In this document: positions 34,634 through 37,374 of the stretch, in pieces
How positions within the stretch are numbered: the first letter of the stretch is position 1
Layout: each line of letters opens with the position of its first letter
Origin: Mariniflexile sp. AS56
Lineage (GTDB): Bacteria; Bacteroidota; Bacteroidia; Flavobacteriales; Flavobacteriaceae
Reading direction: 5' to 3'
Assembly: GCF_030552475.1 (NCBI RefSeq)
Contig: NZ_JAUPED010000001.1
Location: 62,001-126,000, forward strand
Length of the DNA: 64,000 bases
Position numbers and translations under genes: made by a program
The notes under the pieces: generated by a model
The model's input: the letters and a program-made list of their open reading frames with translations, nothing else
What the model was told of the DNA's origin: nothing
Database searches by the model: none

Positions 34634-35395
34634 TTATAAACTCTCTTCTGAAGGTTTTTCTGTTTTAGGTTTTAGATTATGTGCAACTAAAGTTGAAAAA
34701 GGCTGAACATCAATAAAACATTTCTTAGGTAAATATTGTTCACTAAATTTCATTTGATTAGAATTAAACCATTTTACTTTGTATAACACTTTTGCCACTA
34801 TTTTCTTCTTTTCACCATTAGGATAAAATAAATCTTCGCCTAATTCTTCTTTATATCCACATAAAACAAATTCTGGTGTAGAGTAATTAACAACATATTG
34901 AATCGTTTCCTTTTTTTCTTCAACTGGCTTTCCTTTTTCTTTTTTAATTTCAGTTTTTACAGAACTTCGCTTTTTAAGTATCTCAAGTTTTTTTGTTTTG
35001 AAATAGATTATGTTTCCATATTTATAACTTGGATTTTTATAACCTGACACTTCATCTATAAGACTTTTATATTCTGGGTCTTCGACTGTATTTCCATCCA
35101 TTTTTGAAATATAAAACTTAGTAAAATCCATCAGCATAGACTCATAAACTATTAATTCCTTAAACTCATTCTTATTATCATCAAAAAAGATACAAGTATA
35201 TTTTATTCTTTCAGCTATGGTTTTACCATTAGATGTATCAACAACTTTCTTTTTTTCATCTTCAAAAAACACTTCTATCACAACCATAAATGGAGGAACT
35301 AATTTCCCATCCCCTTTTATATACCTGTCATAAAGTAATGGATGCGTCTTAAAAGTTACAATATTCCCAATTTTAAATTGATTGTCTAAACTCAT
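34634..35395 (-). CDS. Hypothetical protein with two YodC/DUF2158-like halves
   Basis: 253 residues, no signal peptide, lysine-rich. I do not recognise the whole protein. Both halves show a similar order of motifs. First half: KIGNIVTFKTHPLLYD, PPFMVVIEV, KYTCIFFDDNKNEFKELIVY. Second half: KYGNIIYFKTKKLEIL, PEFVLCGY, VLYKVKWFNSNQMKFSEQYL. This resembles the small SH3-like barrel of DUF2158/YodC proteins (GDxVxLKSGGPxMTV then CxWF), joined by a basic linker (about 140-160). An internal duplication is my inference. It lies next to the reverse transcriptase system, so it could be accessory cargo. Confidence 0.6.
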   Translation of the reverse strand: MSLDNQFKIGNIVTFKTHPLLYDRYIKGDGKLVPPFMVVIEVFFEDEKKKVVDTSNGKTIAERIKYTCIFFDDNKNEFKELIVYESMLMDFTKFYISKMDGNTVEDPEYKSLIDEVSGYKNPSYKYGNIIYFKTKKLEILKKRSSVKTEIKKEKGKPVEEKKETIQYVVNYSTPEFVLCGYKEELGEDLFYPNGEKKKIVAKVLYKVKWFNSNQMKFSEQYLPKKCFIDVQPFSTLVAHNLKPKTEKPSEESL

Positions 35396-35407
35396 TGTCT
35401 TATTTTT

Positions 35408-35728
35408 TTATAAATATAAAAAAAATACTACATTTACACTAAAGCAAGGAAGTTCTTTAGTTAAAAAGAAATAAAACATTTGTTGAACTACTGTATTGGT
35501 TTTTAACCAATCACTTAATCCGACTTTTTCAAGAAAAAGGATAATAAATATGGAGATTAAGGAAGATGTATAAGCTGCTGGTTTATCCAGCAAGTATAAC
35601 GTTATAAATGCTGTATAAACCAGCAACTTCTGTAAGATACAGAAATATTTATAAGTTATAGTTATTAGACGACACAATTTAGTTAATGTTACAATCATTT
35701 CTAGAGGGCTTAAGTTTAAATTAGACAA
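35408..35728 (-). other. Open antisense reading frame across the structured RNA (doubtful gene)
   Basis: A TTG-initiated frame of 106 codons (open without a stop back to about 35792) runs opposite to the hairpin-rich region upstream of the reverse transcriptase. The product would be very hydrophobic (rich in Leu, Ile, Phe, Tyr) with one or two possible membrane segments. It has no recognisable family. It may be chance, a small membrane protein, or, more speculatively, coding content meant to be exposed only after reverse transcription. Confidence 0.2.
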
Positions 35729-35860
35729 TATATTATACCGACAAAGTATAATGAACGTACAATTGCAACGTGAGTCGAGAATTCGGCTAATAGTTCAATC
35801 CTTTATAAGGTGTAAGTTTTATTCTGTTATAAATACGTGCGAGAGCTTCCTTTTCTTTTT
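35489..35860 (+). ncRNA. Candidate structured non-coding RNA of the reverse transcriptase system
   Basis: The 470 bases between the hypothetical gene and the reverse transcriptase contain no convincing plus-strand gene but a chain of perfect hairpins: ATTGGTT/AACCAAT (35495-35511), CTTTTT/AAAAAG (35524-35539), a double hairpin with complementary loops (35576-35625), TTCTGTA/TACAGAA (35628-35644) and ATTATAC/GTATAAT (35732-35752). A -7-like element AACATTTG (35475-35482, one mismatch) precedes the first hairpin. Retrons, DRT2, DRT3 and DRT9 all keep a template RNA at this position. Ends are approximate. Confidence 0.55.
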
Positions 35861-35865
35861 TTATT

Positions 35866-37374
35866 ATGATAGAGCAAAAAGATTGGTTTAAAGACAGAGG
35901 TTATCCACATTTTACTAATAAGACTCCAATGTCTATTAGAAAAAATATTGAGCGCTTTGTAACCAATCAAAAAAAAGTGTCTCAACATTCCTTTTCTCCA
36001 CTTATCTTTAAAGAAATTAAGCAGAGACGCTATAAATTATCTGATTTTAATGGAGAATTGAGACGTTCTCACAAAAAAATAAAGAAAGGAAAATTTGTTT
36101 CAAACACAAAAATTAGAGAAATATTATACGCAACGCATATAGATGCTCATATCTATTCTTATTACACGCAACAAATTATCACTCCAAAATATGAAGCCTA
36201 CTTAAAGCAAAACCCATTGCTTTCAAATTCAATAACTGCTTATAGACAAATTGAAACCGACGATAAACTAAAGTTTAAAAACAATGTACATTTTGCTAAA
36301 GATGTATTTGATGAAATTAAACGAAGAGAAAGCTGTGTAACGCTTGTTTTAGATATAGAAAACTTCTTTCCTAGTTTAGATCATAAAAAATTAAAATTGG
36401 CTTGGGCAAAAATATTAGGCTACAAAACATTACCTAAAGATCACTTTAATATTTTCAAAGCCACTACCCGATTTTCTTATGTAAAATTGAAAGACCTAAA
36501 AACTAAAAATGGTCATTTTGATGAAAAAGAATTATCAAAATTCAGAAAAGAAGGGAAGCATACCTTTTTCAGAAGTATTAAGGAATTAATAGATTCTGAT
36601 ATAATAATTCATAAAAATCAAAAACAAAACGACCAAAAAGAATTGATTGGTATCCCACAAGGACTGCCTATTAGCGCATTGCTAGCTAATATTTATATGA
36701 TTGCATTTGACGAAGCTGTTATAAATGAATTAACATTAAAACACAATATTTTTTATCGTAGATACTCTGATGATATTGTAATGATTTGCAATGAAAATCA
36801 AATAAAATCAATTGAAGACTTTGTCGAAAATGAGATAGAAAAAAATGAATTGACAGTATCATTAGAGAAAACAGAAAAAACACTTTTCAAATTAAATAAT
36901 GGTCGTTTACAATCCTATGGAATCGATAAAGATGGAGTTTTAAATCATAACATGCCATTAAATTATTTAGGGTTTGAATTTTATGGTTATCAAACTTTAA
37001 TTAAGTCCAAAAACTTAGCTAAGTTTTATAGAGAAATGAAACAAACCATTAAGCGAAAACATAAGCGGGTAGAAGTCGTTAAAGAAAAACATCTTTTAGA
37101 TGAAGCTCCAGTATTTAAAAGAAAAATTTATAGACTTTTTAGTTTTAAAGGAGAGAAATCGAGAATGCTCCCGGCAAAAAGGACTGATTTTGTTGATGGA
37201 AAAGCAATAACAAAATATTATTATAGAAAATTCCGAGGCAATTTTTTAAGATACGCTTATAGAGCTTCAGATGATTTGGAAGCACCTGAAATTAAAAGAC
37301 AATTACGAAATCATTGGAAAATACTTCAAAAAACATTGAAGAAATATGATTTTTCAAATGTTAAGAAAGATTAG
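35866..37374 (+). CDS. Reverse transcriptase, unknown-group/defence-associated (DRT-like)
   Basis: 502 residues. Palm motifs: A with Asp163 (LVLDIENFFPSLDH), B IGIPQGLPISALLANIYM, C Tyr300-Ser-Asp-Asp303 (YRRYSDDIVMIC), then KTEKT and LNYLGFEFYG. The N-terminus has WFKDRGYPHFT and YATHIDAHIYSYYTQ, which I associate with unknown-group (UG) enzymes, possibly the DRT2-like branch. The NAxxH and VTG marks of retrons are absent, as are maturase and endonuclease domains of group II introns. The basic C-terminal 120 residues may bind RNA. AT-rich, flanked by unrelated housekeeping genes. Subtype uncertain. Confidence 0.88.
   Translation: MIEQKDWFKDRGYPHFTNKTPMSIRKNIERFVTNQKKVSQHSFSPLIFKEIKQRRYKLSDFNGELRRSHKKIKKGKFVSNTKIREILYATHIDAHIYSYYTQQIITPKYEAYLKQNPLLSNSITAYRQIETDDKLKFKNNVHFAKDVFDEIKRRESCVTLVLDIENFFPSLDHKKLKLAWAKILGYKTLPKDHFNIFKATTRFSYVKLKDLKTKNGHFDEKELSKFRKEGKHTFFRSIKELIDSDIIIHKNQKQNDQKELIGIPQGLPISALLANIYMIAFDEAVINELTLKHNIFYRRYSDDIVMICNENQIKSIEDFVENEIEKNELTVSLEKTEKTLFKLNNGRLQSYGIDKDGVLNHNMPLNYLGFEFYGYQTLIKSKNLAKFYREMKQTIKRKHKRVEVVKEKHLLDEAPVFKRKIYRLFSFKGEKSRMLPAKRTDFVDGKAITKYYYRKFRGNFLRYAYRASDDLEAPEIKRQLRNHWKILQKTLKKYDFSNVKKD

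Follow-up and report, generated by a model that had tools for sequence, protein, structure and literature searches.

A putative hidden antisense reading frame in an apparently swappable RNA template beside a DRT2-clade reverse transcriptase of Flavobacteriaceae

In the DRT2 system of Klebsiella pneumoniae (KpnDRT2, PDB 9c0i), a defence-associated reverse transcriptase (DRT) system, a template is copied into tandem repeats, so that a promoter and a stop-free antisense open reading frame (ORF), neo, form across the repeat junction (PMC12039810 and PMC11100668, in their available parts). The Klebsiella archetype consists of a reverse transcriptase (RT) of 425 residues and a non-coding RNA (ncRNA) only, with no partner gene. 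A second described system, DRT9 (UG28), also combines an RT with an upstream ncRNA and makes poly-dA from a U-rich loop (PMC12483538, available in part). Here we analyse a 64,000-nucleotide stretch of Mariniflexile sp. AS56 (the window; contig NZ_JAUPED010000001.1, positions 62,001 to 126,000 of the forward strand), in which an RT of 502 residues (35866-37374, + strand; all positions are those of the window) is separated by 470 non-coding bases that hold an RNA (35396-35865) from a divergent gene for a YodC-like protein. As judged from sequence comparisons and predicted structures, this locus is very probably a DRT2-type abortive-infection system of Flavobacteriaceae.

The locus shares with KpnDRT2 an RT of unknown group 2 (UG2) with the same fold, an upstream ncRNA whose conserved ends enclose a hypervariable template, a template length that is a multiple of three, an antisense concatemer that is stop-free and would give a hydrophobic product and, in part of the loci, a candidate promoter across the repeat junction. 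It differs in that repeat units are 171-192 nt in 38 of the 39 loci studied (105 nt in locus L030), as opposed to the 111-129 nt given in the available part of PMC12039810; in that their ends are mostly GTA, whereas Klebsiella has ACA-1 and ACA-2; and in that the candidate junction promoter is of the Bacteroidota TTG/TAnnTTTR type rather than sigma-70. The RT is longer, a YodC-like neighbour is present, and the Flavobacteriaceae loci show template swapping and some finite ORFs. DRT9, the second-best fold match, has no coding template. The original prediction, made on this DNA from its letters, had raised the possibility of a new Flavobacteriaceae version, and the longer template, the mostly GTA ends, the YodC-like partner, the candidate junction promoter in part of the loci and the exchanged templates all bear it out; it had overlooked both the divergent gene and the antisense hidden ORF. 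In the literature that we searched, mostly without subscription papers and without supplements, we found no DRT2 in Bacteroidota, no YodC with DRT2, no finite Neo and no template exchange, which is a weak negative.

The RT is a member of the DRT2 (UG2) clade. Its YSDD active site is intact (in the context RRYSDDIV), and D302 and D303 are unchanged across all 35 aligned RTs, which comprise 33 from Bacteroidota, the window's included, and two Klebsiella-like controls. PADLOC matches it to Drt2 at E 2.4e-136, with the next RT type, UG17, at E 4.7e-26, and residues 6-429 align to the solved Klebsiella DRT2 chain in the PDB (E 5.2e-52). An AlphaFold2 model, built with the 35 aligned sequences as input (predicted local distance difference test, pLDDT, 86.4), finds 9c0i as its best Foldseek match (E 1.8e-35; template modelling score, TM, 0.86 by target length and 0.74 by query) and DRT9 as its second (E 8.9e-11). 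Both Drt2 models match all 35 aligned RTs, which other RT models also match far more weakly; the window's RT is 33-34% identical to the two Klebsiella-like RTs. A scan of viral contigs for close RT relatives returned none. Separately, the window's genome holds a second RT of 398 residues on contig C24 (L002, 29-1225, - strand); PADLOC matches it best to the generic RT model, and to us it resembles a group II intron maturase.

Relatives were collected by scanning genome contigs, which gave 36 loci, and from a family sample of 397 genomes, 26 of which had an RT match at E<=1e-30; order and genus searches added few new ones. The rows L036-L038, RT fragments without a 5' end, were dropped, and L039-L042, L044 and L086 were left uncounted because their identity or position values equal those of L008, L031, L011, L012, L027 and L028, so that we take them to be the same genomes.

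Upstream of the RT lies an RNA whose conserved structure is strongly covarying. Across 33 aligned loci, both of its ends are conserved and its middle is variable. RNAalifold on 25 homologues gave 54 pairs, in which 98.1% of cells are standard pairs and 16 pairs have changed on both sides; none of 500 shuffles was as good. Sliding the pair partners by 1-3 columns lowers pairing to 32-50%, a control that is partly favoured because this very alignment also yielded the structure; its rows are related to one another. The fold used 25 of the 33 rows (L019, L021, L025, L026, L027, L030, L032 and L033 were left out). The 5' handle (35442-35567, + strand) holds the 5' strands of long-range helices (35448-35457, 35468-35477 and 35482-35490), then a hairpin (35492-35513) and a stem-loop (35514-35561), whose end lies 6 nt short of the template. 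The 3' scaffold (35757-35865, + strand) begins with the second GTA within a 3-bp stem (35756-35758/35768-35770), continues with a hairpin (35773-35788) and supplies the 3' partners of the long-range helices, reaching 35850. The two ends of the RNA are paired with each other in this way (35448-35457 with 35841-35850). Ahead of the handle, TACATTTA (35429-35436, + strand), of the form TAnnTTTR, is likely the -7 element of the ncRNA promoter; a TAnnTTTA-like box is common at this position in the locus alignment.

Folding of the single sequence (35480-35866) against dinucleotide shuffles gave z -2.50 for the + strand (1 of 100 as good) and -3.62 for the - strand (0 of 100), and the biggest perfect hairpin (arms 35572-35629) falls within the hypervariable template. 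Such single-sequence hairpins are little proof alone, and the shared structure of homologues is the convincing part. The original prediction of a DRT-type system near DRT2, with a 502-residue RT, intact YSDD and its own structured RNA, is thus upheld by the two sequence-based checks among those it had named, a profile search and covariation of the upstream bases in homologues; its hairpins are present, but the conserved RNA starts at about 35442, upstream of where it had placed the start. Tenacibaculum dicentrarchi (L023, 4529-5001) is a natural case of RNA loss: it keeps the RT but has neither the ncRNA nor the first part of the YodC-like gene.

Between the two RNA ends, the template forms one repeat unit of 189 nt (35568-35756, + strand), which begins with GTA-1 (35568-35570) and stops immediately ahead of GTA-2 (35757-35759). 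Joined end to end, it would read without stops on the antisense strand as 63 codons per unit: 62 are linear (35570-35755, - strand), the 63rd lies across the repeat junction, and the likely neo start codon, read from the sequence, is an ATG at 35698-35696 (- strand). To find the unit ends, pairs of alignment columns around the template were scanned. At most 28 of 33 loci came out open in antisense and at most 10 in sense, and GTA-1 to GTA-2 is among the pairs that tie for first place. With these ends, 28 of the 33 units are divisible by three, and every one of the 28 is stop-free in antisense, when shuffles expect 0.56; the sense strand is open in none. With the end of the unit shifted by +1 or +2 nt, the count of 28 open units falls to 0 or 2. 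In six further loci (RT 50-75% identical), the ends were placed by the 8-nt spacing to conserved neighbours before any frame was viewed, and all six are open. Under the ACA rule, the two Klebsiella-like control loci reproduce the published arrangement (117 nt, open in antisense, with TTGACA|TATAAT across the junction), and in both a 105-nt ACA pair is open as well. Since the columns were chosen on the first 33 loci, the six later loci and these two controls weigh most.

In total, 34 of 39 loci, the window's included, have a unit that is divisible by three and open as an antisense concatemer, as do 17 of 18 non-redundant templates (<68% mutually identical). The end triplets, counted by eye, are identical in 31 of the 39, among them GTC/GTC in L034 and GTT/GTT in L043. 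The offset of the frame to the junction varies among templates (0, 1 or 2), and the circle closes regardless. The predicted product is hydrophobic, with a grand average of hydropathy (GRAVY) of 0.92 for the window's unit and a mean of 0.81 over 34 Neo units (shuffles 0.15; other antisense frames -0.09). L023, in which the ncRNA is deleted, is absent from the 33 units, and L030 was left out of analysis A5. In 12 DRT2 loci without YodC, columns picked for the best score gave 11 of 12 open in antisense and 8 of 12 in sense.

The junction may also assemble a promoter. The Bacteroidota consensus has a -33 element TTTG and a -7 element TAnnTTTG (PMC2483708, available in part). The strict form TTG-N18..21-TAnnTTTR occurs in 7 of the 39 concatemers, always across the junction and nowhere else (shuffles: mean 0.18, maximum 2). 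If the -7 box may carry one mismatch but must lie no more than 3 nt from the junction, criteria that were set once the junctions were known, the count rises to 14 of 39 (full shuffles: mean 0.50, maximum 4; only the -33 side shuffled: mean 2.58, maximum 9, 0 of 500 as high). The window belongs to these 14, with TTG-N20-TACGTTCA: its TTG (35591-35593, - strand), a possible -33 element, sits 20 nt upstream of TACGTTCA only in the concatemer, where 35570-35568 are joined to 35756-35752. About a third of the loci thus join candidate halves of a Bacteroidota-type promoter across the junction.

Among relatives, the template behaves as a swappable cassette, to judge from the following comparisons. 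The window's RT and that of Mariniflexile fucanivorans (L003) share 92% of their residues, the 3' scaffold and RT gene start are identical (about 35774-35923), and the 5' handle is about 0.9 identical. The template between them falls to 0.38-0.50 identity in 60-nt windows, with sharp edges near both GTAs; its overall identity of 0.57 is that of shuffled sequence (mean 0.56, maximum 0.61), and the alignment z is 0.5. Conversely, L008 shares the window's template at 87% though its RT DNA is 81% identical, and L005 and L031 share 97% of the template and 83% of the RT DNA (this comparison left out L034 and L035, whose RT is cut by the contig end). Alignment scores sort the 39 templates into six classes and four singletons; they replaced a classification by eye, which had given 21 changes (minimum 10, shuffled mean 25.6). 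On the RT tree, a quick search with branch support from the Shimodaira-Hasegawa-like approximate likelihood ratio test (SH-aLRT) and some long, unsure deep branches, 7 changes must be assumed for the 7 loci of the window's class, and well-supported branches force at least 6 of these. The six classes together need 14, above the minimum possible of 5 and below the mean of 18.7 for shuffled labels (0 of 200 as low), and three classes (T1, T5 and T6) cluster; inheritance and exchange therefore both act on templates. Sister RTs with unrelated templates are L001, the window's own locus, with L003 (support 99), L014 with L015 (100) and L028 with L029 (100). Besides the two controls, the tree contains 37 rows from Bacteroidota: of the 33 unit loci, all but L034 and L035 (31), and in addition L043 and L045-L049.

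Some templates appear to encode a finite protein. In L003 and L024, in-frame stops lie between the junction and the ATG, so that no endless frame is possible there. In these two and in L006 and L007, an ORF from the ATG crosses the junction and stops 3-4 codons on, at 56, 58, 58 and 58 residues (L003, L024, L006 and L007), in units of 182, 185, 181 and 181 nt. The distances from ATG to junction (158, 161, 161 and 161) are of a single phase. The hidden ORF ends just past the junction in L003 and L024, and probably also in L006 and L007, where untemplated extra junction bases could rescue an endless frame. All four templates are related (class T1), so these are not four independent events. The 172-nt unit of L025 is open in no frame, and this template may have decayed.

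Several observations weigh against assigning the locus to DRT2 with an endless Neo. The NCBIfam Drt2 equivalog NF041746 scores 370.5 bits, below its cut-off of 390; we thus regard the RT as a divergent member of the clade and no clear equivalog. A third control, the DRT2 of Photobacterium (53% to Klebsiella), has no open ACA unit. Five of the 39 units are not endless, the end triplets differ in 8 of 39 loci (six of them in template class T2), and the frame by itself leaves room to shift the junction by multiples of three. Even with one mismatch, 25 of the 39 junctions have no promoter match. Finally, differences by codon position (214/210/245 in 17 overlapping pairs) are weakly biased, so selection on the amino acids of Neo is weak or masked.

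Could the antisense frame instead be an ordinary small gene of the minus strand, with no concatemer product? The linear genome does contain a long minus-strand ORF, of 106 codons at 35408-35728, and several distant loci likewise have antisense ORFs of at least 90 aa ahead of the RT. However, a linear gene needs neither a length divisible by three nor open joined ends, and 34 of 39 units have both; unrelated template classes place the frame at different junction offsets, and strict promoter matches are confined to the junction. We therefore hold this explanation to be improbable. Much the same low probability attaches to the idea that a different kind of repetitive DNA is copied from the RNA, in the manner of DRT9, DRT3 or DRT10, with the DNA as effector and the frame incidental. 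That products differ widely among ncRNA-bearing DRTs, in the available parts of the sources, speaks for it, as does the description of the Klebsiella archetype as RT and ncRNA only. It would leave stop avoidance specific to the antisense strand without a reason, and both fold and sequence are those of DRT2, far from DRT9 (Foldseek 1.8e-35 versus 8.9e-11). A DRT9-like homopolymer template was rejected.

A group II intron, retron or other non-defence RT is the least credible alternative, with hardly any probability left to it. Weak shared RT-domain matches are what it has in its favour. The group II intron model reaches 60.4 bits against a cut-off of 300 and the St85 retron model 59.5 against 235, PADLOC retron RTs score far below Drt2, and the neighbourhood is fixed in many genera. 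At gathering thresholds, the window's sole Rfam match is a cobalamin riboswitch, so there is no group II intron RNA in the window, in agreement with the original statement that intron parts were missing.

For a DRT2-type system, we infer the steps beyond the sequence (complementary DNA, transcription, toxicity and phage defence) from Klebsiella DRT2. The RT would hold the ncRNA until phage infection triggers copying of the template; by jumping from GTA-1 back to GTA-2, it would spool out tandem repeats. Once these turn double-stranded, the junction promoter would fire, and the RNA would be translated into a hydrophobic, repetitive Neo protein, with 63 codons per unit here, halting growth. Template swapping would let a lineage change the effector while the machine is kept.

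The YodC-like gene (34634-35395, - strand; 253 aa; PADLOC RTasYodC, PDLC03806, E 3.6e-92) adjoins the RT in all 34 loci in which the 5' portion of the RT is present (33 of the 36 from the contig scan plus L001; L023 is counted). Searched against 395 genomes of the phylum, the RTasYodC profile has five matches, all five beside an RT homologous to the window's. In 12 of the 26 RT-positive family genomes, the gene lies in the fetched upstream flank (about 0.6-1.5 kb; tblastn E<=0.01); the RTs of the other 14 are all <40% identical. In L046-L049 (RT identity 50-55%), it stands upstream of the RT in the same direction, so the link between RT and YodC survives a change of orientation. Three of the five profile matches are distant, L066, L067 and L068, whose RTs show 41-43% identity over the available portion. 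Their YodC-like protein is longer (377-416 aa by ORF), and its gene diverges from the RT across a gap of roughly 420-440 nt; the two that were scanned, L066 and L068, match RTasWYL-YodC (PDLC03787; 416 and 377 aa). Both family names already imply an association with RTs, and no function for either was found in the papers searched. The RTas names are said to stem from Mestre et al. 2022. In L005, L006, L007, L011, L013 and L031, the RTs are 83-85% identical to the window's and the YodC-like proteins about 37-43%, so divergence or exchange is also faster in the partner than in the RT. We also noted L050-L063, a second set of DRT2-like RTs from Flavobacteriaceae (identity 32-39%). Their fetched flanks contain no YodC-like gene, and in some of these loci antisense ORFs lie upstream of the RT.

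The AlphaFold2 model of the YodC-like protein (pLDDT 88.4) reads to us as two tandem SH3-like beta barrels, and Foldseek against the PDB gave no match at E<=1e-3. Most likely the protein regulates or licenses the RT-RNA machine. Our guess is that it does so as a nucleic-acid-binding regulator, with the divergent promoter and the RT-RNA complex about equally plausible as its target.

In 17 of the 36 loci, an ATP-binding cassette (ABC) uptake operon and rmuC (Pfam RmuC) both flank the system; some contigs end too early for both to be seen. We call the operon btuCD-like on the basis of its sequence and of a cobalamin riboswitch close by. A genome of the same genus (G323) has about 100 bases between operon and rmuC in place of the system, and L080 carries the system of L003. 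From these shared flanks, it follows that the system stays at one chromosomal site in these lineages while the template changes. The gap between ABC transporter and rmuC was rejected as a general defence hot spot: in L082 it is about 100 bases, and the relatives L078, L079 and L081 carry what we read from their sequences as TPR-like or lipoprotein-like genes there. We therefore claim no defence island. The riboswitch (RF00174, 31325-31556, - strand, 95.6 bits) precedes a gene resembling a TonB receptor, next to what we label an apparent vitamin B12-type ABC uptake operon.

We give even chances to a reading that joins these strands, in which the hidden effector is an exchangeable cassette, replaced by an unrelated one with RT, scaffold and site kept, so that a single RNA-writing machine serves many effectors. 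Neo would then not have to be endless, since in L003 and L024, and probably in L006 and L007, concatenation would give only the promoter and the stop for a protein of 56-58 residues, and the YodC-like protein would be an obligate regulator or trigger partner, absent from Klebsiella DRT2. These loci allow Neo to be read in a second phylum, which has a promoter type of its own, and in longer units; they make testable the need for a never-ending frame, the template as a modular effector slot and the role of the YodC-like partner. If the template alone is indeed exchanged, RNA genes would house a repertoire of effectors that gene finders do not see.
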